This document shows positions 1,977 through 63,295 of a stretch of 64,000 nucleotides of DNA, in pieces. Source of the stretch: Rufibacter roseus (GTDB lineage: Bacteria; Bacteroidota; Bacteroidia; Cytophagales; Hymenobacteraceae); NCBI RefSeq assembly GCF_001647285.1, contig NZ_LRML01000011.1, forward strand, positions 62,001-126,000, in the 5' to 3' direction. The translations under genes were made by a program, and so were the position numbers. Every line of letters starts with the position of its first letter. Within the stretch, counting starts at the first letter, position 1. The notes beneath the pieces are model-generated. The model was given only the letters and a program-made list of their open reading frames with translations. It did no database searches and was not told the origin of the DNA.

Positions 1977-2014
1977 GTTTTTGGCCTGTTTTCTGAAAAC
2001 CAGCCAAAAAACAC
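1977..2014. repeat. P40 palindromic repeat, copy 1
   Basis: P40 is a near-palindrome of about 40 nt that recurs between genes across this window. The left arm resembles CTGTTTTWGGCYTGWTTTTC and the right arm GAAAACAGGCCWAAAACAG. This copy reads TTTTTGGCCTGTTTTC / GAAAACCAGCCAAAAAAC. It starts 13 bp 3' of the WYL regulator stop (minus strand). Confidence 0.85.
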
Positions 2015-2026
2015 TTGGTGTCAGCG

Positions 2027-2716
2027 TTAGTAGTTTACTGGCAAGAGCTTCATGTAATCACTTAGCGGCATGTGCTCCGGCTTCTGGAATGAAAGACTTG
2101 TATTTTTGAGGGTGAGAATGCGCGACACTCTGAAATCGCGGTAGTCTTGCCGTTGGTGGCACCAGGCAATCATGTGCCAGCTGAACGCATAAAATACTAG
2201 CCCAATAGGTTCTACCAAGCGCTTGCTCACCTCTTCCTGCTTGTTTTTGTAGCCCAACTCCAGCAGACATTTGCTTGAAATAGCGCCTTGAATTACCGTC
2301 AGGAACTCGTAGTCGTTGTTCACGCAGGCCGGCAGCTGCAGCTTTATATTCTGGTGCAGGCTTTCCAGCTGGTCTTTCTGGCTGCCCCGCAGCACTGCCT
2401 TTACCTTATCTAACGCCGCTGAGTAGTGGTTTTTGATGGATTTATCAGCAAAGCCGAAGACCATGGCCTCCATGAGCAACAGAGCGTTGGCTTCTTCGGT
2501 GGTGAAAGATACGGGCGGCAGGAAATAGCCCTGTACCACAAAATAGCCTTTGTGCGGCTCAAACCCGACAGGCACGCCCTGCTCCCCCAGCGCCTTTATG
2601 TCGCGGTACACTGTCCGGATGCTGATGCTGAACGCTTCCGCTATTTTCTCGGCGGTAATGTATTTTTTTGACTGCAGCAGGGTCAGGATTCCAAAGAGTC
2701 TGTCTATACGGTTCAT
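2027..2716 (-). CDS. WYL-domain transcriptional regulator (HTH_11)
   Basis: An N-terminal winged HTH of the DeoR/HTH_11 type (about residues 1-60, with AEKIAEAFSISIRTVYRDIK as recognition region) is followed by a WYL-type ligand-sensing domain (about residues 120-205: the stretch ending LVFYAFSWHMIAWCHQR, then YRDFRVSRI). Such proteins act as one-component DNA-binding repressors or activators. The frame is open to 2764, but the ATG at 2716 (MNRIDRLFGIL) starts exactly at the HTH and is preferred; 230 residues is a normal length. It lies between the DUF202 gene (66 bp upstream) and the DinB gene downstream, so it may be co-transcribed with either and may regulate DinB. Confidence 0.88.
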   Translation of the reverse strand: MNRIDRLFGILTLLQSKKYITAEKIAEAFSISIRTVYRDIKALGEQGVPVGFEPHKGYFVVQGYFLPPVSFTTEEANALLLMEAMVFGFADKSIKNHYSAALDKVKAVLRGSQKDQLESLHQNIKLQLPACVNNDYEFLTVIQGAISSKCLLELGYKNKQEEVSKRLVEPIGLVFYAFSWHMIAWCHQRQDYRDFRVSRILTLKNTSLSFQKPEHMPLSDYMKLLPVNY

Positions 2717-2782
2717 GGCTTCAGGTTTAGCATGAGATACTGCAAGATGCTGCAAATCCGTCAATGAAGCTATACTTAAACC

Positions 2783-3172
2783 TTATTCAGAAGAGTCAAG
2801 CTTTTCTTGTTTCACCAATTCTGTACGGATGGGGCTGGTAGGCATGTATGTGCTGGTATGCTCTTCCATTATGCGCTTTGTTTTGGAGTAACGGTGAAAG
2901 CCCCAAACGGCAACTAAAATGCCAACAGGAATGGTGGCTACACCAATCCAGACGTAGACAGGGTCATCCCAGAAAAGCTTAATGAAAGTAAGGCCAGCCA
3001 CCAACAAGCCAAAGGCGCTGCGCATGTAAGACATGAGGGTGCGCTCGTTGGCCAGCTTGGTTCTGTCCATGGCCAGTTTGTCACGCACCTCCAAATTCTG
3101 CTTTTCCTGAACTTCTAAGCCTTCTTTAATACGTTCTTTTGCCTGTCTGGAAAAAATATTTCGAATTCCCAT
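2783..3172 (-). CDS. DUF202 (YidH-like) membrane protein
   Basis: This 129-residue protein has the DUF202 signature, an N-terminal amphipathic segment followed by RTKLANERTLMSYMRSAFGL. Hydrophobic segments follow at about residues 52-70 and 75-92, and the tail is charged. DUF202 proteins are small inner-membrane proteins of unknown biochemical role. The first ATG at 3172 (MGIRNIF) fits the family. It is the first gene of a possible three-gene minus-strand run with the WYL regulator and DinB. Confidence 0.85.
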   Translation of the reverse strand: MGIRNIFSRQAKERIKEGLEVQEKQNLEVRDKLAMDRTKLANERTLMSYMRSAFGLLVAGLTFIKLFWDDPVYVWIGVATIPVGILVAVWGFHRYSKTKRIMEEHTSTYMPTSPIRTELVKQEKLDSSE

Positions 3173-3262
3173 GCAGGCTTTTACGAGGCCAAGCTGCTAA
3201 AAGTAACTACATTGGGCAACTTTATGTCATAAGCCAAAATAAGCTTCAACTCTGATTGGTGG

Positions 3263-3302
3263 CTGTTTCTGGCTTGATTTCTGAAAAGCAGGCCAAAAAC
3301 AG
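3263..3302. repeat. P40 palindromic repeat, copy 2
   Basis: This is a 40-nt copy with arms CTGTTTCTGGCTTGATTTC and GAAAAGCAGGCCAAAAACAG. It ends 10 bp 3' of the stop of the small membrane protein gene at 3313 (minus strand). Confidence 0.9.
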
Positions 3303-3312
3303 CCAAGGATTT

Positions 3313-3705
3313 TTATTTGACAACGGGCTCCACTTCTTTAACGGCCACAGGGTGCCGGAAGCAGATGACCCCGAATAAGGCGGCGAAAATGGCATAAATA
3401 CTGATCAGGGGCAGGTATTCAACAGGCAAGGCTTTTATCAAAGCCATAGCACCCACAAAAAAGTGCAGAAAATTGCCCATGGCTAACGGACGAGCATATA
3501 TCCCTCCTATTAACACCCGCCTTGACATCCAATTTAGAATACCAAAACCTAAGTACAGAGACCCCATGAGCTGCAGCAACAAAGCATATATTCCTACGGC
3601 CGGAGCTCCTAGGTATTGTAAGATCTCATGGGGCAGAAATGAAGCAGCCATTCCAATAGCACCCATCACCAGAGCACTACCTGCTAATACCCATCTGGTA
3701 TTCAT
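3313..3705 (-). CDS. Small four-helix membrane protein, function unknown
   Basis: The 130-residue protein has four hydrophobic segments (about residues 5-22, 36-56, 78-92 and 98-114) and few charged residues outside the C-terminus (KEVEPVVK). I do not recognise a named family; the overall pattern resembles the many DUF-class four-TM proteins of Bacteroidota. The ATG at 3705 gives MNTRWVLAGSALVMG, a plausible first membrane helix. It is followed directly by P40 copy 2. Confidence 0.7.
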   Translation of the reverse strand: MNTRWVLAGSALVMGAIGMAASFLPHEILQYLGAPAVGIYALLLQLMGSLYLGFGILNWMSRRVLIGGIYARPLAMGNFLHFFVGAMALIKALPVEYLPLISIYAIFAALFGVICFRHPVAVKEVEPVVK

Positions 3706-3722
3706 AATTTAAATTGTCTGAA

Positions 3723-4391
3723 CTAATTCAACATTGGCTTCTGCGGAAATTTAGGCAAAACCGATTTCGAAGCAAAAATGAGTATTTGGATAACTAAACC
3801 CAAACAAATGATCAACACCAACTCAAATTGGGTAAGAATGGTAGAACCGGCAATTATTTCCTTTGACTTCTCGTTCAGGCGCTTTCCTTCCGCCACTTGA
3901 ATTTTTGATAGCTGCTCTAAATTGCCGGCGGCCACACTGTACTGGGCATCCATTAGCTGTTTGCCATGAGCCATCTCTACCTCTACAGCCTCGTTCTGCA
4001 GATAGCTCAACTCAAGTCTGCTAATCTCTGACATGTTACGCTTAAAGGCGGCAAACCTTACAGACTCCGCTTCCGTCAGTTCTGTTTTACCATAATCTAG
4101 GATTAAGGCGTTAATGGCAGTGTTATGATGAATTAGTTGATTATATAATTTTGAATAATCTCCTTGGTTACTGCAGTTGTCAACCAACATCTTTTTGCTG
4201 TACAGGTGGTTTGATAGCTGAAAGATATAACTCTCTACCAACAATCGGTCTTCATATACGGCGGCAAAAGAATTTCCAAGCTGGCTCACATTTTTACTGT
4301 CAATCAAGTTCTTGGCGAGCACCAACACCATTACCAAGGCCAGCAAAACTGCCACCTTGGTTTTCCTTCTCAAACTGTAGGCCCATTTCAT
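3723..4391 (-). CDS. 4HB_MCP-like sensor domain protein without a signalling domain
   Basis: The 222-residue protein has a short basic N-terminus, a TM helix near residues 9-26, a long helical extracytoplasmic region (about 30-185) and a second TM near 192-210, then stops. This is the layout of the four-helix-bundle ligand-binding module of methyl-accepting chemotaxis proteins, but no HAMP or MCP signalling domain follows. Such stand-alone 4HB_MCP proteins occur in Bacteroidota and their function is not established. The start is placed at ATG 4391 (MKWAYSLRRKTK), just before the first TM; the upstream in-frame extension to 4454 adds an unconvincing extra hydrophobic stretch. Confidence 0.65.
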   Translation of the reverse strand: MKWAYSLRRKTKVAVLLALVMVLVLAKNLIDSKNVSQLGNSFAAVYEDRLLVESYIFQLSNHLYSKKMLVDNCSNQGDYSKLYNQLIHHNTAINALILDYGKTELTEAESVRFAAFKRNMSEISRLELSYLQNEAVEVEMAHGKQLMDAQYSVAAGNLEQLSKIQVAEGKRLNEKSKEIIAGSTILTQFELVLIICLGLVIQILIFASKSVLPKFPQKPMLN

Positions 4392-4785
4392 ACCATTAGA
4401 TTTTAGAGTGATGAGGGTTTCAGCGACAAGTGCAAACATGAACAGAGCAGCCACTCCTCTTCTATGAAGTAACGGATTAATTCGCTATAAAACAATAAGA
4501 TACAGAAACAAATACCCAATGCTTCTGAATGAACAGGTATTTTCATTTTTTGGCCAATGCACAATCTTCACCATACTTCTAAAGCGGCGCCTTCACCTAT
4601 GACAATAGGATGCCCTTGCCTCCTCCAGGCTTTATGAGCGGCGAAGACTTACCTCAGCTTCAAAAACACTAGTCTTCAGCTTCCTGTTCAGGAGCTCATT
4701 CAACCTTTTTGCTCAAATAAGAGTATTAAAAAAACACAATAGATCTGATTATCAGATTCAACACCTTGACTTTAAACCTACAACT
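4392..4785. other. Gene-free stretch
   Basis: About 390 bp between divergent genes (minus-strand 4HB protein, plus-strand small lipoprotein). I see no convincing reading frame, repeat or clear promoter hexamer; it presumably holds the promoters of both flanking genes. Confidence 0.5.
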
Positions 4786-4956
4786 ATGAAAAACTTACAA
4801 GGATACTTTTTCGCTTTAATGATGGTCATGATGGTCATGATGAGCAGCTGCGACCTGATAGGAGGAATTTTCAAAGCCGGCATGTGGACTGCCTTGATCC
4901 TTATTATCTTGGTGGTGCTGCTAGTAGTGTGGCTTTTTAGAAAGATAAGACGCTAG
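4786..4956 (+). CDS. 56-residue lipoprotein-like membrane peptide
   Basis: This short frame starts at ATG 4786 and ends at TAG 4954-4956. The product has a Met-rich hydrophobic start (MMVMMVMMSSC), a probable lipobox ending in Cys22, the motif CDLIGGIFKAGMWT, one TM helix (ALILIILVVLLVVWLF) and a basic end (RKIRR). A family with the CxLIGGIFKAGxW motif is common in Bacteroidota and is sometimes mislabelled phosphatidate cytidylyltransferase because it lies near cdsA in some genomes; it has no enzyme domain. Its function is unknown. The stop codon is followed immediately by P40 copy 3 and a strong terminator, which supports a real transcription unit. Confidence 0.85.
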   Translation: MKNLQGYFFALMMVMMVMMSSCDLIGGIFKAGMWTALILIILVVLLVVWLFRKIRR

Positions 4957-4957
4957 C

Positions 4958-4995
4958 GTTTTAGGCTTGATTTAGCTGAAACAGCTCAAAAACAG
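4958..4995. repeat. P40 palindromic repeat, copy 3
   Basis: The copy begins 1 bp after the stop of the 56-residue peptide gene. Its right arm (CTCAAAAACAG) is also the outer left arm of the terminator at 4984-5032, so the repeat and terminator share bases. Confidence 0.8.
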
Positions 4996-5032
4996 AAGGG
5001 GCCGCAAATTGCGGCCCCTTCTGTTTTTGAGC
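4984..5032. terminator. Bidirectional terminator between convergent genes
   Basis: A perfect 22-bp stem (4984-5005 with 5011-5032, loop AAATT) has the GC core AGGGGCCGC and A/T outer parts CAAAAACAG / CTGTTTTTG. It separates the plus-strand small peptide gene from the minus-strand T9SS cargo gene. Confidence 0.9.
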
Positions 5033-5042
5033 GTAAACTCTT

Positions 5043-7319
5043 CTATAATAAGACCAGTCTTAGCGTGGCTTGTTTATCAGCGTAATTCACTTTCACAAAA
5101 TACACACCTGCCTGCTGAAGGCTTAAATCTAATGCTATAGGGGCACCTGCCTCAACCTGCACCTGCTGGCGCAGAACTTCTTGCCCGTTACTGCGGAATA
5201 CGGTGACAGAGGCTTCACCTTCTATCAGGTAAGGAGCCCGTAAATATACCAGTCCTTCAGAAGGGTTGGGGTAGAGCTCAAGGGCTCCGGCCACACCTTT
5301 ACCGTTATAGCCTACCGCTACCACTTTTGAATAAGAAGTATCACCGTTGAAATCTGTCTGCTTTAACCGGTAATATATGGTTTGAGCAAGGCTTGTGGTA
5401 ATAGAGGACTGGTACCGATTCTCTACGACACTGTTTCCTGCACCTACTATTTTATCTCCTACTTCTCTAAACAGTTTTCCGTCTAGGCTTTGCTCAACCT
5501 GAAAGAACTCATTGTCTTTTTCAGAAGCTGTAGCCCACTCAAACGTCACTTTTCCACCATTGCGTTTTGCATTGAAGTAAAGTAATTCTACTGGTAGCGG
5601 CTCAGGGGCTGGGGCTTTTGAAGACATTATTGCATAAGGCGAAAATGACATATTTCCAGTGCGGGTTATACTATACATCCCGTTCGCTTCGGTCGCTTTT
5701 TGCTTAGTTGTTGTATCCCAAGCGCCATTTTCATAGTGAGCAATAAACACACTGTCTTTTTTAAATCCTCTGAGGGTGTCAGTGGCGTTCCAGAAAAGGG
5801 TAATATTCATGTTAGAGCCACCCTTTACACCTTCTTCAATCAACCAAGTTTTGTTTACCACAGACGAGTCAATAGTAGAACCTTGAGGAACATCATTCAA
5901 GTAAGAGGTATAGACTTTATCAATTACACGAACACTGAAGTCATCTTCAGTTCCACTAGCAAGATTTAGCTCAATAGGTGTATAACCAGACGCATTTCCT
6001 ACTGGAATGAATGCTTTCCCACCTGGCTTTAATCTTACCTTCACTTTACCATTGCCCAACACTTGGATATAACTGGTGGCATTATACTCTGCAAACTTGG
6101 TGGGGTCTTCCATGATAAGGTCATGCTCACCTAAATCTAGCTTTCCGCCATTTTTGATTCTTAAGTTGCCTTTGACAATAGTGTTTTTTGTCAGCTTTTT
6201 TACGCCTCCATTGATTTGCAAATTACCATACGTTTCTGTAGAAATAACAGTAGGTGCAGCTCCATACTCTATGGTACTGGTAGAAGACACAGTTCCCAGC
6301 GTTGGCAGCGTACTATTTTCTATGTAAAGCGTCGCGTTTGCGCCTACATCAATGGTACCATTAAGCGCAGCTGTAGTTGGAATGGTTAAGTTCAAGCCAG
6401 ACCCTAACACAAACTTGCTGCCAGTAGGCAAAGTAACACTTGACGTTAGTACAGCATAAGATTTGTCTATGATGTAAGTTGTATTTGCAGCTGGAAAAGG
6501 ATCTGGATGGACAACTCCATTTCTATTCACCCATCTGGTTTTCACACCAATATTAAATGGGCCTGTTTCATTATGAGCAAGGGTACTTAGAAAATAAGTA
6601 TTAGTAGTTGAGGAACTAGCTGTTCCTGCTGAGATTGCCACATTGTCAATTCCTACTCTATTCTTATTGTTTTCCTGTACCTCAGACCATCTAATAATTA
6701 ATTCTTGATTTGCTCCTAAAGAAAGACCCACTAGACCAACCATGGTTCTAGTATCATTAACTGAATTTCCATCCATGGTAATGTTATTACCTCCTTGCCC
6801 TCTCTCAGGCATTGTACCTAAATCAGAGACTACAGTCCAACCAGTAGAATTCAGGTCAACAGTTCCTCCGCTTGGAATAACCTTATAAGAAAATGAAATT
6901 TGCCTTGGAGTTTTAGTATTGTACCATAGCTCAGCAGAATAACTAACAACAAAGTTAGATATACTGCTGCCAGAAGCATTTTTCAAATGCAAACCAATGT
7001 AACCAGTACCAGTATTGCCCGCTACTATTCCTATGGCTCTATCTGTATTATTAACAGCCCCATAGCTTTTAATCCCATTTGTAAAATCATCGCCAATGGT
7101 AGCAACTACATTTGTAAGCGCTGTTCCATTTGACGATTGCACATACCATCCTGCCAAAGTAGAGTTATTAACCCAAGCACCAGCTGTTAGCGTGTTAAAA
7201 TCTTGGGCGTACTCGTACTGCTGGGAAGTAATAGAAACTTGAGCTTTCACTGTAAAAGAAAGCAAAAGAAATAAGCATAATACCCCCAAAATGCGATAAG
7301 AAAAGTACAGAATTTTCAT
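5043..7319 (-). CDS. Secreted T9SS type A sorting-domain protein
   Basis: The 758-residue protein starts with a signal peptide (ILGVLCLFLLLSFTVKAQ). Residues 25-235 form a beta-rich domain ending in RVGIDNVAIS, typical of extracellular carbohydrate-binding or fibronectin-like modules in T9SS cargo. A region of short beta-strand repeats follows (about 255-420). The last 80 residues (LELYPNPSEGLVYL to the end, with GVYFVKVNY) are the type A T9SS C-terminal sorting domain. It should be exported by Sec, moved across the outer membrane by the type IX system and anchored or released. I see no catalytic motif. The ATG at 7319 directly precedes the signal peptide. Confidence 0.85.
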   Translation of the reverse strand: MKILYFSYRILGVLCLFLLLSFTVKAQVSITSQQYEYAQDFNTLTAGAWVNNSTLAGWYVQSSNGTALTNVVATIGDDFTNGIKSYGAVNNTDRAIGIVAGNTGTGYIGLHLKNASGSSISNFVVSYSAELWYNTKTPRQISFSYKVIPSGGTVDLNSTGWTVVSDLGTMPERGQGGNNITMDGNSVNDTRTMVGLVGLSLGANQELIIRWSEVQENNKNRVGIDNVAISAGTASSSTTNTYFLSTLAHNETGPFNIGVKTRWVNRNGVVHPDPFPAANTTYIIDKSYAVLTSSVTLPTGSKFVLGSGLNLTIPTTAALNGTIDVGANATLYIENSTLPTLGTVSSTSTIEYGAAPTVISTETYGNLQINGGVKKLTKNTIVKGNLRIKNGGKLDLGEHDLIMEDPTKFAEYNATSYIQVLGNGKVKVRLKPGGKAFIPVGNASGYTPIELNLASGTEDDFSVRVIDKVYTSYLNDVPQGSTIDSSVVNKTWLIEEGVKGGSNMNITLFWNATDTLRGFKKDSVFIAHYENGAWDTTTKQKATEANGMYSITRTGNMSFSPYAIMSSKAPAPEPLPVELLYFNAKRNGGKVTFEWATASEKDNEFFQVEQSLDGKLFREVGDKIVGAGNSVVENRYQSSITTSLAQTIYYRLKQTDFNGDTSYSKVVAVGYNGKGVAGALELYPNPSEGLVYLRAPYLIEGEASVTVFRSNGQEVLRQQVQVEAGAPIALDLSLQQAGVYFVKVNYADKQATLRLVLL

Positions 7320-7381
7320 AATATTAAAATAATCTTTTGGGCTGCTTGGGGGTTAGCAGACTTGACACTTTGGATACGACA

Positions 7382-7389
7382 CAAAATTA
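7382..7389 (-). promoter_or_regulatory. Possible -7 box for the T9SS cargo gene
   Basis: The reverse strand reads TAATTTTG, matching the Bacteroidota -7 consensus TAnnTTTG, about 60 bp before the start codon. I could not place a convincing -33 TTTG at 19-21 nt. Confidence 0.35.
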
Positions 7390-7986
7390 GACAATTAAAT
7401 AAACAATTCATCTAATTTTGAAATATAACTATTTACAGATAGACTATATATTACCCCAAGAACTAAGGGTAATTTCCTTGAAAAATTTGATTTTTTATGA
7501 ATCTTATCCTGCAAATTGGCTATAACTAGCTAATTAACAACCCAATAGAAATACAACTTGTTAATATGTTTGAAATCTTCAGACATCAATTTATTATACA
7601 ACATTTGCTTAATATATAAATATTTATACGTTTTATTAAAAGATTTATACAATTATTTACTTAATTATTTTTTTTATTATATTCTACAATTCTAGATTTT
7701 CCCAATAAAATACAAGGCATATATACTTAGCCTCAACTTTTCAAAATAGTTGGTTACCAACAACTTAAGTTTTAGCTCTCTTTATCTCACCAGAATAGCA
7801 AGAAAGTGCAGAGGCAAAGCCACAGCAGGCTACGTATTAATTTTAATAGCGTTTATCTCCATTTGCCCCTGAAGAAAATGGAAGGGCAGGTGTTTGTGAG
7901 CTAGATAAGCTACTTAGTTTACTACCACAAGAAAGGCTTCAAAGGCAACAGTAGGGGCGGCCAACCCTTTGAACAGGGCACAAAAA

Positions 7987-9330: not shown

Positions 9331-9370
9331 CTGTTTCAGCGCTGTTTTCTTCAAAACTGGCTAAAAACAG
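9331..9370. repeat. P40 palindromic repeat, copy 4
   Basis: This 40-nt copy has arms CTGTTTCAGCGCTGTTTTC and CAAAACTGGCTAAAAACAG. It lies 23 bp after the stop of the BT_3928 gene and 48 bp upstream of aroK. Confidence 0.9.
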
Positions 9371-9393: not shown

Positions 9394-10509
9394 TTATTTC
9401 AGCTTATTCTGCACTTCTTCTACCGTGGGCAAATCATTGTAATGCCATTTGCCTACTACCACGCCATTCTGCAGTAACAGCACCCCTGGGTTAGAGCGTA
9501 TCATTGTTTTAAGCACAGTGGCATCAGCGAAGAAGTAGGGAGCGGCTAGGTTCACTTCATGCCGGAACACGTCAAACTCCTGGCTGCTACTAGAGGTGAG
9601 AACTACTGGTACTACTTTGGGGCTCTGGCTCTTCTCTAAGCCTGCCAGCAAATTATTTATTTCTGGATAGATCTCAGGCTCTGTTTTGCTGACGTTGTGT
9701 ACCACTATCAGCAGCCGGTTTCCCAGAAACATTTCCTGCGTAAAGTCCCCCATGTCATTCCAGACGTTGAAGTCAGATATTTTTGGACCGTCTTCAGGAT
9801 TTTGAGCCACCATTTCTTTGAACTTGTAGCTCTTGTCTGTGGGGAATTGATCAAAGGTGTATTCCTTCCCGTCTTTCTCCATAATGTACTGGTACCGCAT
9901 TGGCGCCGAGGCTTTCATGAGCTTTGGAATATTGTTCCCGACTTTGTAGACCCTGAAATCAAAATACGGCAGGTGCTGATAAGCATACACTCCAATGGCC
10001 ACTGACAGAAGAACGGCCAGAGCTACCACCACACCACCTGTTTTGGAGCTGATTTTCCGAAACGGGGCCAAAAACCGCTGAGTAAACAACAGAACCAGAA
10101 TGAGCACCAGCAGCACCACATCTTTGCTGAATGACTGCCAGGGCGTCAGTTTTATAAAATCTCCGAAGCAGCCACAGTCGGTTACTTTGTTGTAATACGC
10201 TGAGTAAAAGGTCAGGAACGTAAAGAACAGCGTCAGGAAAAAGAGCAGCCACAGTACCAGCCTCACCCGCCAACGCACCAGCAGCGCCACCCCCAGCACC
10301 ACTTCCAAAGAACTTAAGAAAATGGAGAGGTACAGCGCGTAAGGCTTAAACGCCTGAAAAACCAAAGAGAAATCAGCGGAGAACACCTCAAAATACTCCT
10401 CAAGCTTTATGGCAGTACCAACAGGGTCATTGAGCTTGATCAGGCCTGAAAAAATGAACAGACCGCCCACTACCAGCCAGGCAATTCGGTTAAGCACCAG
10501 TTTAAACAT
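9394..10509 (-). CDS. BT_3928-family DoxX/MauE-like membrane protein with thioredoxin-like tail
   Basis: The 371-residue protein starts with a DoxX/MauE-type four-helix membrane domain (about residues 8-150), including the characteristic TDCGCFGDF motif. A further TM helix near 160-178 is followed by a periplasmic region ending in a thioredoxin-fold-like part (LLIVVHNVSK ... NPGVLLLQNGVVVGKW). This matches the BT_3928 family of Bacteroidota, thought to act in envelope redox or cofactor chemistry, though its role is not proven. It overlaps the upstream DUF1599 gene by 8 bp, so the two are translationally coupled. A P40-like segment (10038-10076) lies inside the gene, coding for part of RFLAPFRKISSKTGG between membrane segments. 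Confidence 0.88.
   Translation of the reverse strand: MFKLVLNRIAWLVVGGLFIFSGLIKLNDPVGTAIKLEEYFEVFSADFSLVFQAFKPYALYLSIFLSSLEVVLGVALLVRWRVRLVLWLLFFLTLFFTFLTFYSAYYNKVTDCGCFGDFIKLTPWQSFSKDVVLLVLILVLLFTQRFLAPFRKISSKTGGVVVALAVLLSVAIGVYAYQHLPYFDFRVYKVGNNIPKLMKASAPMRYQYIMEKDGKEYTFDQFPTDKSYKFKEMVAQNPEDGPKISDFNVWNDMGDFTQEMFLGNRLLIVVHNVSKTEPEIYPEINNLLAGLEKSQSPKVVPVVLTSSSSQEFDVFRHEVNLAAPYFFADATVLKTMIRSNPGVLLLQNGVVVGKWHYNDLPTVEEVQNKLK
10038..10076. repeat. P40-like repeat inside a coding sequence, copy 5
   Basis: Arms CTGTTTTGGAGCTGATTTTC and GAAACGGGGCCAAAAACC match the P40 layout but lie in frame within the BT_3928-family gene, in a basic linker after the membrane domain. Confidence 0.6.
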
Positions 10510-12789: not shown

Positions 12790-12806
12790 CTGCAATGATC
12801 ATTTAG

Positions 12807-12855
12807 CAGTAAACAGTGGTCTGTTAAAAGTTATTGGTTATTAACTATAAACATT
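12807..12855. repeat. Heptamer array H1 (7-nt period)
   Basis: Seven consecutive degenerate 7-mers: CAGTAAA, CAGTGGT, CTGTTAA, AAGTTAT, TGGTTAT, TAACTAT, AAACATT. The array starts 17 bp after the cdaA stop and resembles array H5 (CAGTTAT units). Confidence 0.6.
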
Positions 12856-12870
12856 AAGTGCTCGGCCTTT

Positions 12871-12950
12871 CTTTGGCGCAAGCGTCCGCTTGTGTCCGTA
12901 TGCATTCCTAATCTGGTAACGTTGGACACAAGCGGACGCTTGCGCCAGAG
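12871..12950. repeat. Long inverted repeat (27-bp arms)
   Basis: Arms 12871-12897 and 12924-12950 pair over 27 bp with one mismatch; the core is GGCGCAAGCGTCCGCTTG and the loop is 26 nt. It lies between the convergent cdaA and PVC-type dehydrogenase genes. There is no U-tract, so it is more like a dispersed palindromic repeat than a classic terminator. Confidence 0.85.
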
Positions 12951-12954
12951 AAAT

Positions 12955-12992
12955 CTGTTTTTTAGGTTATTTCTCGGCAATTCCTAGAACAG
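12955..12992. repeat. P40 palindromic repeat, copy 6, overlapping a stop codon
   Basis: Arms CTGTTTTTTAGG and CCTAGAACAG have the P40 layout with a diverged centre. The right part covers the last codons and the TAG stop (12984-12986) of the minus-strand dehydrogenase gene. Confidence 0.6.
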
Positions 12993-15303: not shown

Positions 15304-15343
15304 CTGTTTTTGCCCTCTTTTCTGCATTTCAGGCGAAAAACGC
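15304..15343. repeat. P40 palindromic repeat, copy 7
   Basis: Arms CTGTTTTTGCCCTCTTTTC and CATTTCAGGCGAAAAACGC. It lies 22 bp after the stop of the oxidoreductase gene (minus strand), within the intergenic gap of the operon. Confidence 0.75.
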
Positions 15344-18179: not shown

Positions 18180-18506
18180 CTTTTAACTATTTAGAAAGAA
18201 CATAAGCTATTGGATTTGCTGCCGTTCAAGCTTTTGCCTTCCGTTAGCCCACTTCATCTTTAAATATAAAAATTACTTTAGATAAATCGATTTGTTAACA
18301 GCATGCTTTTTAGTTAGCACTCAATATTAAAACAGCATGGCCATGATTAGCTCCTGACTTTCATTCTGGCGGATCTTGTAGTTTACCGGAGGCTGTTTTA
18401 CCCCTTCTTTTTAAAAAAACAGGCTTAAAACAAAGACAAAAGCCCCCAGAACGCAGGGCAAATCCTGAAAACTTTGTACCTTATTGCGCAAAACCTTACC
18501 TGTATC
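18180..18506. other. Divergent intergenic region
   Basis: About 330 bp between the DUF1080 operon and the beta-lactamase-like gene. It should contain both promoters. A weak TATATTTA-like box reads on the minus strand at 18261-18268. The right part holds P40 copy 8. Confidence 0.4.
18393..18435. repeat. P40 palindromic repeat, copy 8
   Basis: Left arm CTGTTTTACCCCTTCTTTTT, right arm AAAACAGGCTTAAAACAAAG. Unlike most copies it lies between divergent genes, upstream of both. Confidence 0.65.
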
Positions 18507-22229: not shown

Positions 22230-22269
22230 CTGTTTTAGGCTTCTTTTTCAGAAAACAGGCTAAAAACAG
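22230..22269. repeat. P40 palindromic repeat, copy 9
   Basis: A well-conserved 40-nt copy: CTGTTTTAGGCTTCTTTTTC and GAAAACAGGCTAAAAACAG. It begins 10 bp after the helicase stop codon. Confidence 0.9.
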
Positions 22270-25589: not shown

Positions 25590-26075
25590 TTGTCTATGGT
25601 TGTTTGTCTGTCTCTTTATAACAAAGTGGGCAGCCAATAGCAAGAAGCGGAAAGAGAAGGAGGTATTTCTAGAGACGGAGCAATTGAATTTTAAAAAAAT
25701 TAATTCTGGTATTTCTTAGTCTACTAATTCCTAATCTAAGTACTTCTTCCTGAACAATTGATTGCCCACGTACTTTATAAATTCAATCTATAATATCCGC
25801 TCTCAGCCGTAATTGTTTTATGTATTTCTGCTTCGTTTAATATGAAAACGATAGGCTCGGGGAAAGCCCCTTCTAAGAAAAGCAGTTCAATTTTGGTAAG
25901 CGCGGCGTAAAAATAGAGAATAAGATAGCTTACTACAAGTCTCTCTTAACAATTATATAACGTATTTTGAGCAGCAGTATTTCTACATAATCATCTGTTT
26001 TAGACCTATTTTTAGAAAGGAGAGCTAAAACGAATTACTTTATAATATTCTTGGGCAAAACGCGCATTAATAGAT
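25590..26075. other. Gene-free stretch with a weak heptamer-like segment and a diverged P40
   Basis: About 490 AT-rich bases without a convincing frame. A short stretch at 25716-25743 (TTAGTCT, ACTAATT, CCTAATC, TAAGTAC) hints at a 7-nt period, and P40 copy 10 lies at its right end. Confidence 0.4.
25995..26032. repeat. P40 palindromic repeat, copy 10 (diverged)
   Basis: Left arm CTGTTTTAGACCTATTTTT, right arm GAGAGCTAAAACG. It lies 43 bp 3' of the stop of the small secreted protein gene at 26076 (minus strand). Confidence 0.6.
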
Positions 26076-27254: not shown

Positions 27255-27290
27255 AAAAACGCCTCTACCAGATATGGTAGAGGCGTTTTT
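27255..27290 (-). terminator. Terminator of kbl
   Basis: A 16-bp perfect stem AAAAACGCCTCTACCA / TGGTAGAGGCGTTTTT with loop GATA, 34 bp after the kbl stop on the minus strand. Its right edge overlaps P40 copy 11. Confidence 0.9.
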
Positions 27291-27321
27291 CCTCTGGTTT
27301 AAAAAAACAGGCCAAAAACAG
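27285..27321. repeat. P40 palindromic repeat, copy 11 (left half diverged)
   Basis: The right arm AAAAACAGGCCAAAAACAG is intact; the left arm GTTTTTCCTCTGGTTT has drifted and shares GTTTTT with the kbl terminator. It ends 2 bp from the kbl stop codon. Confidence 0.75.
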
Positions 27322-30140: not shown

Positions 30141-30178
30141 ATTGTTTTGGGGCTGTTTTTCTAAAAACAGCAAACAAT
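30141..30178. repeat. P40 palindromic repeat, copy 12 (partly diverged)
   Basis: ATTGTTTTGGGGCTGTTTTT and AAAAACAGCAAACAAT; it keeps the GTTTT...AAAAACAG plan and lies inside the composite element between H2 and H3. Confidence 0.65.
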
Positions 30179-32103: not shown

Positions 32104-32141
32104 GTTTTTGAGCTGATTTCAGAAAAAGAGCACCAAAACAG
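32104..32141. repeat. P40 palindromic repeat, copy 13
   Basis: GTTTTTGAGCTGATTTC and GAAAAAGAGCACCAAAACAG; it begins 2 bp after the stop of the thioredoxin-like gene. Confidence 0.8.
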
Positions 32142-33657: not shown

Positions 33658-33696
33658 TGTTTTGGGGCTCATTTTGAGAAATCAGCCCCAAAACAG
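33658..33696. repeat. P40 palindromic repeat, copy 14
   Basis: TGTTTTGGGGCTCATTTTGA and GAAATCAGCCCCAAAACAG, one of the most symmetrical copies, 29 bp after the DUF4403 stop. Confidence 0.9.
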
Positions 33697-34837: not shown

Positions 34838-34878
34838 TGTGTTTTAGCCTTATTTTACGAAAAACAGCCTGAAAACAG
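34838..34878. repeat. P40 palindromic repeat, copy 15
   Basis: TGTTTTAGCCTTATTTTA and GAAAAACAGCCTGAAAACAG. The first base follows the YihY stop codon with no gap. Confidence 0.85.
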
Positions 34879-36230: not shown

Positions 36231-36269
36231 CTGTTTTAGGCCTGATTTTCTAAAAACACACCTAAAACG
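36231..36269. repeat. P40 palindromic repeat, copy 16
   Basis: CTGTTTTAGGCCTGATTTTC and AAAAACACACCTAAAACG. The left arm is consensus and the right arm has two changes. It lies between arrays H5 and H6. Confidence 0.88.
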
Positions 36270-41036: not shown

Positions 41037-41074
41037 TGTTTTCGGCCTGTTTTTGAAAAATGAGGCCGAAAATG
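41037..41074. repeat. P40 palindromic repeat, copy 17
   Basis: TGTTTTCGGCCTGTTTTTG and AAAAATGAGGCCGAAAATG. It sits just after the peptidase terminator. Confidence 0.85.
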
Positions 41075-41553: not shown

Positions 41554-41592
41554 TGTTTCAAGCCTGTTTTTACGAAAATGGACTGAAAAGGC
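41554..41592. repeat. P40 palindromic repeat, copy 18
   Basis: TGTTTCAAGCCTGTTTTTAC and GAAAATGGACTGAAAAGGC, 7 bp after the SRPBCC stop. It abuts the following terminator with a 1-bp gap. Confidence 0.75.
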
Positions 41593-52160: not shown

Positions 52161-52748
52161 TTACTCTTCCTCATTGAAGAACCACACCTTCTCTGGGGTG
52201 ATGACGGCATCTAAAAGTAAATCTTTAGAAGAGACATCATCAATGCGCTCAATAGGTGGCTCAAAAGCCAGCCCGAGTTTTAGGCTTGTTTTTGGTAAAA
52301 GAGCCAGAAAACGGTCATAGAATCCTTTGCCGTAGCCAACCCGATGGCCTTGTAAATCATAGGCCAGCAGCGGCACCAGCACCACGTCTATTTCAGATTC
52401 AGGCACCGGCAAAGCGTTTATTGGCTCTGGAATTCCCCAGCGGTTAATGACTAGTTCAGTATCATGCTGCAGCAGAAAATGTGTCATGGAAAAATCTGCC
52501 GGATTTGAGACCGAGACAGCTACCTGCACCTGCGGATGCTCTACCCGTAGCTTTTCGATAATCTGCCAGGTGTCTACCTCTCGGTTCTGGGGGATGGGCA
52601 AAAATGCATGGATGGTTTGCCCCGCCTGGGGCGGAAATTCCTGCAGGAGAAGTTCCGCAATTCTCTGGCTAGCCAGCTGCACCTCTTCTGCGCCTAGCTG
52701 ACGCCGGCGCGTTAAATACGTTTTCCGAAGTTCAGCTTTCAGAGCCAT
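52161..52748 (-). CDS. 5-formyltetrahydrofolate cyclo-ligase
   Basis: This enzyme converts 5-formyl-THF to 5,10-methenyl-THF with ATP. The 195-residue protein has a basic N-terminus (RKTYLTRRRQL), a substrate-site segment IHAFLPIPQNREVDTW, and the diagnostic VGYGKGFYDRFL. The start is ATG 52748, 1 bp after the bshC stop, so the two are coupled. The frame also reads upstream to 52793 within bshC. A P40-like segment (52277-52312) is in frame near LLPKTSLKLGL. Confidence 0.93.
   Translation of the reverse strand: MALKAELRKTYLTRRRQLGAEEVQLASQRIAELLLQEFPPQAGQTIHAFLPIPQNREVDTWQIIEKLRVEHPQVQVAVSVSNPADFSMTHFLLQHDTELVINRWGIPEPINALPVPESEIDVVLVPLLAYDLQGHRVGYGKGFYDRFLALLPKTSLKLGLAFEPPIERIDDVSSKDLLLDAVITPEKVWFFNEEE
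52277..52312. repeat. P40-like repeat inside a coding sequence, copy 19
   Basis: GTTTTAGGCTTGTTTTT and AAAAGAGCCAGAAAAC match the P40 plan but lie within the folate cyclo-ligase gene, in frame, after the GYGKGFYDRFL motif. Confidence 0.55.
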
Positions 52749-54549: not shown

Positions 54550-54588
54550 TATTTTAAGCCTAGTTTTCTTAAAACAAGCCGAAAACAG
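54550..54588. repeat. P40 palindromic repeat, copy 20
   Basis: TATTTTAAGCCTAGTTTTC and AAAACAAGCCGAAAACAG, 2 bp after the rimO stop on the minus strand. Confidence 0.85.
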
Positions 54589-57571: not shown

Positions 57572-57590
57572 CAGGTTGCTACTTTTTTAT

Positions 57591-57618: not shown

Positions 57619-57642
57619 GCACGACAAAGGTAGTTATAAATC

Positions 57643-57682
57643 CTATTTTCGGCCTGTTTTCAAGAAAACTGCCCAAAAACAG
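57643..57682. repeat. P40 palindromic repeat, copy 21
   Basis: CTATTTTCGGCCTGTTTTC and GAAAACTGCCCAAAAACAG (40 nt), between arrays H8 and H9. Confidence 0.9.
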
Positions 57683-57692
57683 AAGCCCTAAT

Positions 57693-57720
57693 CTTTATAC
57701 ATGCTACCTGATACTTGCTA
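57693..57720. repeat. Heptamer array H9 (inverted partner of H8)
   Basis: On the minus strand, four 7-mers TAGCAAG, TATCAGG, TAGCATG, TATAAAG. It starts 3 bp after the stop of the aminopeptidase gene. Confidence 0.82.
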
Positions 57721-57723
57721 CTG

Positions 57724-59343: not shown

Positions 59344-59352
59344 GGCAGAGGA

Positions 59353-59592
59353 TTAGTAAACGATGTAGCCTTCTTCTTTGGCTTTCTTCAATACAGAAGA
59401 GATACCGTTTTTAGTGATGTTGCGCAGAGCAGACGTAGAAACTTTCAAAGTAACCCAAGCATCTTCTTCAGGAATGTAGAAACGCTTCTTCTGCAAGTTC
59501 GGGTAGAACTTACGCTTTGTTTTATTGTTGGCGTGCGATACGCGGTTACCTACCTGCGTTCTTTTACCGGTTAAATCACAAACTCGTGCCAT
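59353..59592 (-). CDS. rpmB: 50S ribosomal protein L28
   Basis: The 79-residue protein begins MARVCDLTGKRTQVGNRVSH and contains RFYIPEEDAWVTLKVST, as in L28. The longer frame to 59661 is not used because the conserved start is at ATG 59592. The promoter at 59627-59658 precedes it. Confidence 0.97.
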   Translation of the reverse strand: MARVCDLTGKRTQVGNRVSHANNKTKRKFYPNLQKKRFYIPEEDAWVTLKVSTSALRNITKNGISSVLKKAKEEGYIVY

Positions 59593-59626
59593 TGTATCGT
59601 TAGATTCGTTTATTACAAAAGGGATG

Positions 59627-59658
59627 CAAATATCCGCAAAAAGATGTGTAATGTCAAA
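59627..59658 (-). promoter_or_regulatory. Promoter of rpmB
   Basis: On the minus strand TTTG (59658-59655), a 20-nt spacer and GATATTTG (59634-59627), one mismatch to TAnnTTTG. Confidence 0.7.
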
Positions 59659-59729
59659 CACACCTTCTAAAATTTTTCTTTAATTCCTTCTGAAAAAGCC
59701 TTTTACCCGCTTTTGCCTCTATCTTTCCC

Positions 59730-59900
59730 TTATTCTCTGGCCTCTGTACTGGCTTCTTTCTTGAATCCGTAGGGGCAATGTTTGCATCCGCTCCGGCAGC
59801 AATAACCTCTTCTTTTGTGGTATTGCTCGGTAAAAACCATCAGGCCTTGGTCATTATAATAATAGTCGCCGGGCTGTAGCGGCAGCGGTTTTGCAGGCAT
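59730..59900 (-). CDS. DUF5522 Cys-rich small protein
   Basis: The 56-residue protein has the pattern PGDYYYNDQGLMVFTEQYHK followed by RRGYCCRSGCKHCPYGFKK. The Cys cluster CC...GCKHCP suggests a metal or iron-sulphur site, although no function is known for DUF5522. The start is ATG 59900 (MPAKPLPLQ); the frame extends to 59948. Confidence 0.88.
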   Translation of the reverse strand: MPAKPLPLQPGDYYYNDQGLMVFTEQYHKRRGYCCRSGCKHCPYGFKKEASTEARE

Positions 59901-60570
59901 GGCGCAAAGATAAGAGGTTGTTTTGTGGCGTAAAAGAGAAGTATACAACTTCAGAATGTCTCTCGCTTTAATTGCAGGTGGCCTTTCTTTATGAAGCTCG
60001 AAGGAAAATGTTTACACCTGCCGATCCACGCATTCCCGATACACCTTCCTAGAAGGGTTCCTCGCAATCTGCATCTTCCATGGTTATCCTTAGCGCTAGC
60101 CGAAGGATCTAACGAAGACAATCTATGGTGATGGAGACACAGCATCAGCAATGAGCAGTCAAACCCCGTGCCTTTTCTGTAAGAATCACCGCTTTACTCT
60201 CCGCTGTTGTTTCGTGTTCTCACCGACAACCACAACTGCTTCTGCCTTTGGAAATTCTTTTCCTGCTGCCGATTTCCATTGCCACTTCTACTCCAAGGCC
60301 TCACAAGACAGCCTTCTCCGTGGCACTGGCTCTGAGCGCTCACGGCCGCGAGGCCCGCCCTGTGGATTCGCACTGCCCTTTTCACTAGACCTTCAGTCTT
60401 GCCGCTAGCGCGGCACCGTTCAAAGCGAGGCGCTCATCCCCACGGCTGGTAACAGTTCCAATTCTGCGGCTTGTGTTGCTGTTGAATTTTGGCTGTTAGT
60501 TTACTATTTCGGTAGTTCCTGGATAGAGTCTCTCGCGCTGTGCGCATCACCTTTTTCTACCTATACATTT

Positions 60571-60609
60571 TGTTTTAGGGCTGCTTTTTCAAAAATTAAG
60601 CTAAAACAG
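60571..60609. repeat. P40 palindromic repeat, copy 22
   Basis: TGTTTTAGGGCTGCTTTTTC and AAAAATTAAGCTAAAACAG. Unusual in lying upstream of a gene (rocD) with no nearby stop codon on the left. Confidence 0.8.
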
Positions 60610-60671
60610 TAGGTTCTTTCCACTCATGGCTTCCTTCCCCTTGAGTTGCTAAGGCATTGCACGGAAATTTT

Positions 60672-60679
60672 TACCTTTA
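60672..60679 (+). promoter_or_regulatory. Possible -7 box of rocD
   Basis: TACCTTTA, one mismatch to TAnnTTTG, with TTG 23 nt upstream (60646-60648). The same TACCTTTA appears before the DUF4403 gene. Confidence 0.4.
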
Positions 60680-60752
60680 TCTCAAAATACAGATTATTCG
60701 TATTGAATTTTACTTGGGGAGCCGCTCCCCTTCATTCTAAACTACTGCAACT

Positions 60753-61994
60753 ATGAATACCTCCACCATTACCTCCAGCCAGGAAGCCATTGCCTTAGAA
60801 GATAAATACGGAGCGCATAATTACCATCCGCTGCCGGTAGTGCTGAACCGCGGCGAAGGCGTTTTCTTGTGGGACGTGGAAGGCAAACGGTATTATGATT
60901 TCCTGTCGGCGTACAGCGCGGTGAACCAAGGGCACTGCCACCCGCGCATTATTGGCGCACTCACCCAGCAGGCGCAGCAGCTCACGCTTACCTCTCGGGC
61001 CTTTTATAATGACAAGCTTGGGCCAGCTGAGAAATACCTGTCAGAGCTGTTTGGTTATGACAAGGCCCTGTTAATGAACTCCGGGGCCGAAGCCGTGGAG
61101 ACGGCCATTAAATTAGCGCGCAAGTGGGGCTATCAGACCAAAGCCATTCCGCCGCATGAAGCTGAAATTATTGTAGCCGAACACAACTTCCACGGCCGCA
61201 CCACCGGTATCATCTCCTTCAGCACCGACCCTAGCAGCACTACCGGTTTCGGACCATACATGCCGGGCTACAAAGTAGTGCCTTATGACAATCTGGAGGC
61301 GCTGGAGCAGGCCCTGAAAGACAACATACACGTTTGCGCCTTTCTGGTAGAACCAATTCAGGGCGAGGCGGGAGTGGTAGTGCCCTCTGAAGGCTATCTG
61401 ACCAAGGCGAAGGCGCTGTGCGAGCAGTATAATGTACTGCTGATCGTAGACGAAATCCAAACGGGGATAGGCCGCACCGGCAAACTATTGGCATCAGAGT
61501 ACGAAGCCATAAAACCAGACATATTGATTCTGGGAAAAGCCCTCTCGGGCGGAGTGTTACCAGTCTCAGCGGCCTTGGCCAACGATGAGGTGATGCTGTG
61601 CATCCAGCCGGGTGAACATGGCTCTACGTTTGGCGGCAATCCTTTGGCCTGCGCCGTAGCCGTAGCCGCACTGGAAGTGATCAAAGATGAAAAGCTGACG
61701 GAAAACGCGCAACGCTTAGGAGAGATTTTCCGCAGCCGCATGAACCAACTGAAAGAGAAGCACCCGGAACTGGTGAGTTTAGTACGCGGCCGCGGCTTGT
61801 TGAACGCCGTCATCATCAAACCTACACCTGATGGCCGCACCGCCTGGGATGTGTGCGTGAGACTGATGGAGAACGGCCTCTTGGCCAAGCCCACCCACGG
61901 CGATATTATCCGCTTCGCACCGCCGCTGGTGATGACCGAAGAGCAACTGCACGAGTGCTGCGATATTATTGCCAAAACGCTGGAGGAGTTTTAA
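60753..61994 (+). CDS. rocD: Ornithine aminotransferase
   Basis: This PLP class-III aminotransferase converts ornithine to glutamate-semialdehyde. Motifs are [20 protein letters not shown] (typical Oat N-terminus), [56 protein letters not shown] and the PLP-lysine segment [14 protein letters not shown]. The 413-residue length and the N-terminal YGAHNY motif distinguish it from acetylornithine aminotransferase. Confidence 0.95.
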
Positions 61995-62008
61995 TTCTTC
62001 CCAATGAT

Positions 62009-62053
62009 AAAATAGAAGAACCGTTCCACCTCCTTGGGCGGTTTTTCTATTTT
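62009..62053 (+). terminator. Terminator of rocD
   Basis: A 15-bp stem AAAATAGAAGAACCG / CGGTTTTTCTATTTT with one G-T pair and a 15-nt loop, 14 bp after the stop. Its right arm overlaps the left arm of P40 copy 23. Confidence 0.8.
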
Positions 62054-62086
62054 AGGCCTGTTTTCCATAAAATAAGCCTAAAACAG
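62047..62086. repeat. P40 palindromic repeat, copy 23
   Basis: CTATTTTAGGCCTGTTTTC and AAAATAAGCCTAAAACAG (40 nt), sharing CTATTTT with the rocD terminator. Confidence 0.9.
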
Positions 62087-62270
62087 AAAGCCTACCATTG
62101 TAGCCGACCATGTTTAATTAGAATGGTTTACTTTTGCCCAACAAGCTATCCAAAAGGCAATCGGCTTTTTCAGCTGGTTTTACACTTTTTAAGGAGCTTT
62201 GATGTTTTGAAACCTGAGTGCCGATGTGCTAATCTCTTTCCGGCCTCTGCCTAACTTATAATTATCTACT

Positions 62271-63251
62271 ATGAATCATTTAACCCGCCGCCCCCGCCGC
62301 AACCGTAAATCTGAAGCTATCCGGAGCATGGTGCAGGAAAACCAGGTGGCCGTGCAAGACCTTATTTTCCCGGTGTTCATGATGGAGGGAGATAACCTGG
62401 CTGTGGAAATCACCTCTATGCCGGGCATTTACCGCTACTCACCAGACCGCCTGCTGGAAGAAATTGCTTCTTGCGTGGAATTGGGCATTAAAACCTTTGC
62501 CCCCTTCCCACAGATAGAAGAAGCTAAGAAAGACCGCTTCGCCTCTGAAAGCAAAAACCCAGAAGGCCTGTACCTGCGCACCATCTCTGAAATCAAACTC
62601 AATTTTCCGGATGTGGTGCTCATGACTGACGTGGCCATGGACCCTTACAGTTCTGACGGACACGACGGCATTGTAGACAACGGTGAAATCATCAATGATG
62701 CTACCCTGGAAGTGTTAGGGCAAATGGCTTTAGCGCAGGCGCAGGCCGGCGCCGATATCATAGGCCCCTCTGATATGATGGACGGCCGTGTAGCCCACAT
62801 TAGGCAGGTGCTGGACAAACATGCTTTTTACAACGTGTCCATCATGAGCTACACCGCTAAATACGCCAGTGGTTTCTACGGCCCCTTCCGCGATGCCCTT
62901 GACTCTGCCCCTAAGCATGGCGACAAGAAAACCTACCAGATGAACCCCGCCAACAGCCGCGAAGCTTTAATTGAAGCGGAGCTGGACACCCAAGAAGGCG
63001 CCGATTTCCTGATGGTCAAGCCTGCTTTGTCTTATTTAGATGTGATTAAGACCCTGAAAGACAACACCAACTTACCTATAGCGGCTTATAACGTAAGCGG
63101 TGAATACGCCATGGTGAAAGCCGCCGCCCAAAACGGCTGGTTAGACAACGACCGAATTATGCAGGAGGTACTGCTAAGCATGAAACGTGCCGGCGCTGAC
63201 ATTATTCTAACCTACTTTGCGAAGGAATTTGCGCAGTTAATGAAACGGTAA
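62271..63251 (+). CDS. hemB: Delta-aminolevulinic acid dehydratase (porphobilinogen synthase)
   Basis: This enzyme condenses two 5-aminolevulinate molecules in haem synthesis. Two active-site lysines are visible in SYTAKYASGFYGPFRDA and FLMVKPALSYLD. The metal-site segment reads DVAMDPYSSDGHDG, with Asp instead of the Cys triad, so it is the Mg2+/K+-type rather than the Zn type. The length of 326 residues is standard. The start is ATG 62271. Confidence 0.96.
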   Translation: MNHLTRRPRRNRKSEAIRSMVQENQVAVQDLIFPVFMMEGDNLAVEITSMPGIYRYSPDRLLEEIASCVELGIKTFAPFPQIEEAKKDRFASESKNPEGLYLRTISEIKLNFPDVVLMTDVAMDPYSSDGHDGIVDNGEIINDATLEVLGQMALAQAQAGADIIGPSDMMDGRVAHIRQVLDKHAFYNVSIMSYTAKYASGFYGPFRDALDSAPKHGDKKTYQMNPANSREALIEAELDTQEGADFLMVKPALSYLDVIKTLKDNTNLPIAAYNVSGEYAMVKAAAQNGWLDNDRIMQEVLLSMKRAGADIILTYFAKEFAQLMKR

Positions 63252-63256
63252 ACCTT

Positions 63257-63295
63257 CGTTTTAGGGCTGATTTTCAGAAAACGGCCCAAAAACAG
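63257..63295. repeat. P40 palindromic repeat, copy 24
   Basis: CGTTTTAGGGCTGATTTTC and GAAAACGGCCCAAAAACAG, 5 bp after the hemB stop. Its right end AACAG is also the outer arm of the following terminator. Confidence 0.9.

Follow-up and report, generated by a model that had tools for sequence, protein, structure and literature searches.

P40, a genus-restricted dyad concentrated behind genes in Rufibacter, as a candidate protein-binding site at transcription-unit boundaries

The Rufibacter genome studied here carries a discrete, high-information dyad, P40, a high-copy extragenic palindrome in the 20–40 bp class that is concentrated behind genes, often kept at orthologous gene ends, and restricted to the genus Rufibacter (including Sabulibacter). 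From its sequence features we lean, by a small measure, towards the view that P40 is a double-stranded binding site for a putative genus-specific protein that would mark or insulate transcription-unit boundaries. A motif trained on the window (the whole 64-kb stretch of DNA analysed) gave the dyad consensus CTGTTTTnGGCCTGTTTTY-NN-(inverse), with a length of 36–40 bp; the spacer is exactly 2 bp long in 148 sites out of 171, a total that takes in 15 sites below 20 bits. At 20 bits or more there are 156 sites in 464 kb, made up of the window and 400 kb more of the same genome, whereas the reversed sequence used as control has none; extrapolating from stretches of 464, 400 and 400 kb gives ~1,700–2,100 copies per genome. 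Solo half-sites were not found in excess of chance. Regular spacing along the chromosome was rejected, the copies in this genome being irregularly placed (CV 1.12 vs 0.91 random); spacing was more even than chance in the genome G006 and not in G007.

An initial annotation of the window had listed 24 places for this palindrome, about one per 2.7 kb. Twenty-three of them score 23.6–50.0 bits (Table 1) and bear out the density, at about one per 2.8 kb, while the place at 12955 drops out with a best dyad score of -5.9 bits. The annotation also put about 20 copies within 50 bp on the 3′ side of a stop codon; the 3′-side tendency stands, and the number falls to 14 of 23 by our custom gene calls, the remainder comprising four copies 54–167 bp downstream of a stop, two in divergent gaps, two in genes, and the copy at 25997, which has no stop nearby. 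Its description of the right arm as the complement of the left is accurate for the consensus and fails copy by copy, given that, over 17 columns in the 23 window copies, the two arms of one copy match at 11.70 on average and arms from shuffled copies at 11.76.

Table 1. P40 dyads in the 64-kb window, with motif score and local context.
Position	Score (bits)	Context
1977..2012	46.8	
3265..3300	46.4	
4958..4993	39.4	
9333..9368	40.2	
10040..10075	38.5	In called MauE-family gene 9394-10509
15306..15341	28.4	
18395..18431	40.6	Spacer 3; divergent gap
22232..22267	50.0	
25997..26031	39.4	Spacer 1; no called stop nearby
27285..27319		Spacer 1; stop 4 bp before, then terminator after
30144..30178	23.6	Lowest-scoring member; 54-167 bp downstream of stop
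32104..32139	41.1	Stop 2 bp before
33659..33694	45.1	
34841..34876	44.4	Stop 3 bp before
36233..36268	46.5	54-167 bp downstream of stop
41038..41073	40.5	Past canonical terminator; 54-167 bp downstream of stop
41555..41590	30.9	Convergent gap; adjoins bidirectional terminator
52277..52312	39.2	In called gene 52161-52748
54551..54586		4 bp past stop of UPF0004/radical-SAM/TRAM gene (which we take to be rimO-like)
57645..57680		43 bp past aminopeptidase-P-like gene
60572..60607	40.0	Divergent gap
62049..62084	46.6	Past terminator; 54-167 bp downstream of stop
63258..63293		6 bp past ALAD gene; convergent gap; adjoins terminator

Gene calls and the terminator finder were custom scripts, and by these calls P40 is present in 98 of the 124 gaps between convergent genes, in 260 of the 515 tandem gaps and in 43 of the 113 divergent ones; tandem gaps shorter than 40 bp hold it in 2 of 127 cases. 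Comparison of orthologous 3′ ends, pairs that share history and are thus not independent, recovered P40 at both ends in 164 of 313 pairs (115 expected) and at one end only in 51. The difference in distance between copies at orthologous ends had a median of 3 bp versus 27 bp in permuted pairs, and copy identity was 65.5% for orthologous and 62.8% for non-orthologous copies, with flanks at 33%. Individual loci illustrate this placement among genomes that may partly be of the same species, so that the sets are not independent. P40 lies at the end of the rimO-like gene in all nine Rufibacter/Sabulibacter genomes compared (over the stop codon, at -20, in four, and otherwise 2–4 bp past the stop), and follows the aminopeptidase-P-like gene by 30–43 bp in 9/9, the ALAD gene by 2–6 bp in 8/8, and the gene before the copy at 62049 by 54–60 bp in 7/8. 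The best-matching stretches of the relatives are 70–80% identical in DNA, and empty intergenic sites are therefore not alignable.

Copies also occur inside genes, where we counted 31 sites versus 3.45 summed over synonymous shuffles; by the custom gene calls, 10 of 42 sites in G008 and 11 of 50 in G003 are intragenic. In three genes the codons align without gaps, and the copies there were built by substitution without insertion. The frequent retention of orthologous sites, together with these substitution-built copies, suggests that P40 is not simply mobile. As judged by sequence comparison, P40 has the features of a conserved double-stranded recognition sequence, probably under purifying selection.

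The copies that the initial annotation led one to expect elsewhere in the genome and in relatives were found: P40 was present in every one of the 16 genomes searched within the genus, with 107 to at least 150 matches each (whole-genome counts being lower bounds). Among 23 genomes from outside the genus, one had a copy, which probably sits on a transferred segment. The motif has dialects, such as C at column 11 in 93% of G012 sites and A at column 4 in 75% of L031 sites, the latter occupying several gene ends that also carry P40 in the other genomes compared. G008 has a weak motif, with four control matches at 14 bits. A viral scan returned one contig with a P40, using a pattern that recovers only 0/50 to 15/168 of the known copies per genome. 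Searches of the open-access literature on Rufibacter and Hymenobacteraceae returned no paper whose title concerns such a repeat.

The composition of the arms bears on whether P40 is read as DNA or as folded RNA. In pooled arms, T reaches 96–99% at columns 2, 3 and 13–15, with A there at 1–3%; were pairing the only constraint, T and A could trade places, and the near-fixed T thus favours DNA read by a protein over pairing. We rejected a stem-loop kept by pairing in all copies, because the 23 window copies lack covariation. The arm covariation that the initial annotation proposed to look for is missing from most copies and appears at column 5, weakly at column 6, and where the flanks pair. In a set of 146 copies, arm-to-arm covariation is seen at column 5 and at several of the outer columns. 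We then split 596 copies with a 2-bp spacer by flank pairing, setting aside 47 with intermediate pairing and all of G008. The 469 copies lacking flank pairing retain arm agreement at column 5 (0.64 vs 0.51, z 7.7) and, to a weak degree, at column 6 (z 3.1), an agreement that is not explained by a plain binding site; columns 9, 11 and 12 fall slightly below shuffled arm identity (z -2.4, -2.9 and -3.4). Such negative covariation at inner columns is as expected if selection acted on a binding threshold, and is opposite to what pairing would give, and the score cut-off could partly produce it. In the 80 copies whose flanks pair, covariation appears at the outer columns and column 11, and flanks extend the palindrome in 3.6–16% of copies in seven genomes (null 0.2–2.2%).

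We consider it unlikely that P40 is a REP-like or MITE-like mobile palindrome, moved by a Y1/RAYT or other transposase and tolerated chiefly where genes end. One study describes REPs as high-copy extragenic palindromes of 20–40 bp that favour convergent and tandem gaps and also occur inside genes (PMC3733652), and P40 matches the GTAG/CGTC families of REP/BIME in size, copy number, extragenic place and the order convergent, tandem, divergent. The REP/BIME-like label of the initial annotation is therefore apt for the distribution, including proximity to 3′ ends, and poorly supported for a mobile origin, given how often sites and their distances are kept at orthologous places. The genome does encode five RAYT-like genes, all outside the window, but the genomes compared do not bear out a cognate link: at E 1e-3, PF01797 finds no match in G007, which nevertheless has at least 150 P40 matches, and other genera have PF01797 genes but no P40. 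The copy that probably entered another genus by transfer fits mobility, and direct matches of 2 bp and 4 bp next to P40, which are weakly in excess (70 vs 45.5, 52 vs 37 and 12 vs 3.7), fit it too; no longer target duplications were in excess, however, and the lack of surplus solo halves and the gap-free origin of the copies in three genes also speak against it. P40 further departs from REP/BIME in its near-fixed 2-bp centre and in having no fixed tag such as GTAG or CGTC beside the dyad: no base exceeded 0.43 in the 20 flanking columns, with both sides pooled, of 146 copies.

That P40 acts in RNA, as an intrinsic (possibly bidirectional) terminator or a 3′-UTR hairpin, is in our assessment quite unlikely. 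Several observations are compatible with such a role: P40 lies near 3′ ends, it alone is visible in some short convergent gaps (57–67 bp), and the copies with paired flanks covary, several flank-extended ones having A- and T-runs at the base. Indeed, a minority of copies form the tip of terminator-like hairpins. The order stop, P40, terminator at three Rufibacter rimO-like loci further implies that those copies are probably transcribed. Against this, the 40-mers of the 23 window copies had a median RNA folding energy of -8.8 kcal/mol versus -22.2 kcal/mol for 93 canonical terminator hairpins, which had been chosen for pairing, and the same 23 copies are neither stable GC-rich hairpins nor followed by a U-tract (0.31 T vs 0.27). 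P40 is independent of canonical terminators. Co-occurrence in tandem gaps was near expectation (21 vs 17.3, 26 vs 24.8, 24 vs 22.6, 7 vs 4.9 and 7 vs 7.5), in a count from which any terminator sharing more than 10 bp with P40 had been removed, so that P40-tipped terminators went uncounted. Where tandem gaps contain both, the terminator precedes P40 in 64 of 85, and divergent gaps hold P40 in 43/113 cases but canonical terminators in 10/113. Terminator association as a mechanism, the other suggestion of the initial annotation, is thus not supported, given the near-chance co-occurrence and the order of the two elements, and P40 as a replacement for terminators was likewise rejected. The terminator finder gave 55 hits in the reversed control versus 64 and 61 per strand in real sequence, a high control rate that we attribute, tentatively, to the likeness of reversed P40 to a terminator; the case for the finder's specificity is its 107 hits outside versus 18 inside genes.

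Least likely of all is a DNA uptake signal built up by biased transformation, because, although P40 resembles the DUS of Neisseriaceae and USS of Pasteurellaceae in its very many copies and species dialects (PMC3630211, which describes thousands of copies, dialects and inverted pairs at terminators) and has substitution-built copies and some in terminator-like inverted form, it is a very long site that occurs as the full dyad only, with no excess of solo half-sites, and lies mostly between genes.

The reading we prefer, a protein-bound boundary site, can be outlined as follows. In this species the T-tract heptamer occurs twice per half-site (CTGTTTT, 4 bp, CTGTTTT), at a distance of 11 bp and hence on the same helix face, and the two half-sites face each other across 2 bp, a layout that suggests either a dimer whose monomers each make two contacts or a tetramer. 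P40 would be bound in gaps behind genes, often with a terminator on one side and the following promoter on the other, and above all where genes converge; there the complex may act as a boundary, whether as an insulator of supercoils or read-through or as a nucleoid anchor. Weighing against this reading are the arm agreement at column 5, the flank-extended copies, the irregular spacing, the weak motif of G008, the intragenic sites of G003 and G008, and the copies over the stop codon of the rimO-like gene. More tentatively, and here we lean slightly the other way, a fast-evolving clade-specific putative protein and ~2,000 sites that separate transcription units may form a genus-wide boundary system in which protein and sites shift dialect together from species to species and many sites stay at the same gene ends. 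If a protein does read these sites, Rufibacter would hold dense sequence-defined gene boundaries, which to our knowledge are not a generally recognised feature of bacteria. The genus would also offer a natural species series in which perhaps 2,000 sites shift specificity together, and would allow tests of whether transcription units in bacteria are insulated by sites dedicated to that task and of how co-evolution proceeds between one reader and a very large set of targets.

Among known systems, canonical bidirectional intrinsic terminators are, like P40, palindromic and placed between convergent genes, but P40 has its T-tracts inside the 5′ arm rather than a U-tract after the stem, folds weakly and often lies beyond a separate terminator. 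The sites of MatP (matS), Noc and ParB are palindromic, sequence-specific and dispersed over the chromosome, as is P40, which differs from them in having far more copies, in being longer and in being tied to gene boundaries.

We built a symmetric matrix of the half-site from 22 copies in the window and ran it as a dyad over the window and a further 400 kb of R. roseus, which detected 156 P40 sites of at least 20 bits against 0 in the reversed sequence; a first pass of the matrix at 14 bits over the same 464 kb gave 157 and 0. The initial annotation had listed 24 palindromes in the window; their letters were read, and dyad scoring retained 23 as P40 and removed one, at 12955. The half-site is CTGTTTTnGGCCTGTTTTY, and 148 of 171 sites have a 2-bp centre between the two inverted half-sites. 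Solo half-sites (at least 16 bits) were not above chance in the R. roseus genome, with 268 halves within P40, 6 elsewhere and 1 in the control. We infer, with the reservation that the two subsites are unlike each other in other species, that each R. roseus arm comprises two CTGTTTT subsites at a distance of 11 bp, all spacers being 4 bp long.

P40 is abundant in all the Rufibacter genomes searched (including Sabulibacter). The window gene with P40 at its end, which we take to be rimO-like, encodes a protein that shares 93-96% identity with eight named Rufibacter/Sabulibacter records, while identity to Pontibacter does not exceed 91%. All eight Rufibacter/Sabulibacter loci held 9-14 P40 sites of at least 18 bits per 20-21 kb, compared with 0 of 72 other loci (Pontibacter, Adhaeribacter, Hymenobacter, and Solirubrum; some short). 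A whole-genome search (E 1e-4) returned 107 to at least 150 matches in each of 16 genomes of the genus, R. roseus included, and a match in 1 of 23 genomes outside it; density was one per 2.0-3.0 kb in seven sampled genomes. The single P40 found in those outside genomes, in G022, scores 44 bits and was probably acquired by transfer, as its segment of ~510 bp matches two Rufibacter/Sabulibacter genomes at 88-90% identity. Another copy, on a viral contig of IMG/VR, indicates that a phage or prophage can carry P40.

Coordinates of P40 copies and other features
Feature	Sequence	Position	Remarks
Separate inverted repeat, 23-bp arms	window	12875-12946 (arms 12875-12897, 12924-12946)	in convergent gap 12790-12983, beside 12955
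Dispersed repeat, ~160-370 bp	window	~60190-60558	immediately before P40 at 60572; at least 13 further copies (81-90% identity) in own genome; weaker relatives in G001, G012 and others
Repeat, ~35-110 bp	L209	1393-1499	high copy number, with clusters in several members of the genus; looks like a putative integron attC site; same cassette-like segment as the only P40 found outside the genus
Cluster of L209-type repeats	G012:C1	1.069-1.083 Mb
Cluster of L209-type repeats	G008:C1	4.657-4.685 Mb
P40 in gap between ORFs	L210, 39-kb viral contig	1275-1310
RAYT-like genes L124-L128	own genome, C36, C4, C33, C3, C1		open frames 185-226 aa

Based on our own gene calls in the three best-sampled genomes, and counting gaps of at least 40 bp, P40 occupies 98 of 124 convergent gaps, 260 of 515 tandem ones and 43 of 113 divergent ones; tandem gaps below 40 bp, overlaps included, held it in 2 of 127. 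In tandem gaps P40 lies closer to the stop (medians 36-60 bp) than to the following start (131-140 bp). Sites within called genes numbered 6/156, 2/168, and 8/173 in the same three genomes, and 11/50 in G003 and 10/42 in G008, where genes were called from 100 kb only.

These positions are often conserved at orthologous gene ends. Across 14 orthologous gene groups in nine Rufibacter/Sabulibacter genomes (313 pairs of 3' ends), P40 was present at both ends in 164 pairs compared to 115 expected; in a further 51 pairs only one end had it. The distances differed by a median of 3 bp, versus 27 when permuted. Orthologous copies (137 of the 164 pairs used) were 65.5% identical, non-orthologous copies 62.8%, and flanks 32.6%. 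At the rimO-like gene, five genomes have P40 at 2-4 bp from the stop and four have it at -20.

P40 copies within genes were also counted: seven data sets contained 31 sites (at least 20 bits) well within genes versus 3.45 in synonymous shuffles. Of the 31, 12 stem from four genes in the eight named loci, and errors in gene calling may account for some. An aminopeptidase gene of four species has a P40 of 28.5-39.7 bits in a 42-base ungapped codon stretch that in the other five encodes a similar peptide and scores below 3 bits, much of the difference being synonymous. Ungapped P40 also occurs in the BshC gene in 8 of 9 genomes (19-30 bits) and in the adjacent gene in 4 of 5 genomes compared (27-38 bits); in both, the peptide at P40 is also unlike that of other genera.

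The possibility that P40 is a REP-like element moved by a RAYT (REP-associated transposase) is poorly supported: the R. roseus genome has five RAYT-like genes, but G007 has no match (E 1e-3) to the Y1-transposase family PF01797, yet P40 there is plentiful and strongly conserved. Of 39 related genomes, both within and outside the genus, 33 have PF01797 matches. P40 does not appear to be simply mobile. The window itself indeed lacks a RAYT, the gene on C3 sitting just beyond it. The two RAYT-like genes whose ORFs were read have a motif resembling TnpA subclass 2.6, described for Bacteroidetes in PMC6006769.

The suggested association with terminators is not supported as a rule. P40 and canonical terminators co-occur about as chance predicts in five genomes, and the P40 40-mer forms a weak fold and lacks a U-tract. 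Where tandem gaps of these genomes hold both, the terminator precedes P40 in 64 of 85, so most such copies are probably absent from mRNA. Viewed by eye, the rimO-like gene is followed by P40 and then a hairpin with a T-run in three Rufibacter loci (L024, L027, and L031), and thus both orders exist; most Pontibacter and Adhaeribacter loci viewed by eye have the hairpin with a T-run and no P40. Some copies would fit a terminator role: P40 alone is visible in some convergent gaps of 57-67 bp, and in seven genomes flanks prolong the palindrome by at least 6 bp (one mismatch allowed, null 0.2-2.2%) in 10/153, 6/168, 9/172, 3/41, 8/50, 2/48, and 2/40 copies, the 2/48 of G012 hardly exceeding its own null.

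The arms covary at column 11 and the outer columns of the half-site where flanks are paired (80 copies). In the 469 copies without paired flanks, covariation was confined to column 5 and, weakly, column 6, and columns 9, 11, and 12 were slightly negative. Given this lack of general covariation, we read P40 as constrained in general by recognition as double-stranded DNA, hairpin formation having drawn in a minority of copies. Fold-back template switching operates at quasi-palindromes; such copying would extend over the outer columns and the flanks, and part of the column 5 agreement could be due to it. The consensus across sites varies between species: in locus L031 column 4 is A (75%) and column 5 is G (83%), in G012 column 11 is C (93%) and column 12 is A (75%), and in G007 and G013 column 5 is T (90-91%). 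L031 retains several orthologous P40 places. The motif is weak in G008 (stretches L169-L173), where sites are nevertheless frequent, perhaps reflecting decay or relaxed constraint, or a shifted dialect.

The strongest reading, judged from sequence comparison, is that P40 copies mark transcription-unit boundaries genome-wide as sites for a putative DNA-binding protein specific to the genus. For E. coli, insulation of transcription units by HU has been proposed (PMC4992867), in an abstract that names no such sites.
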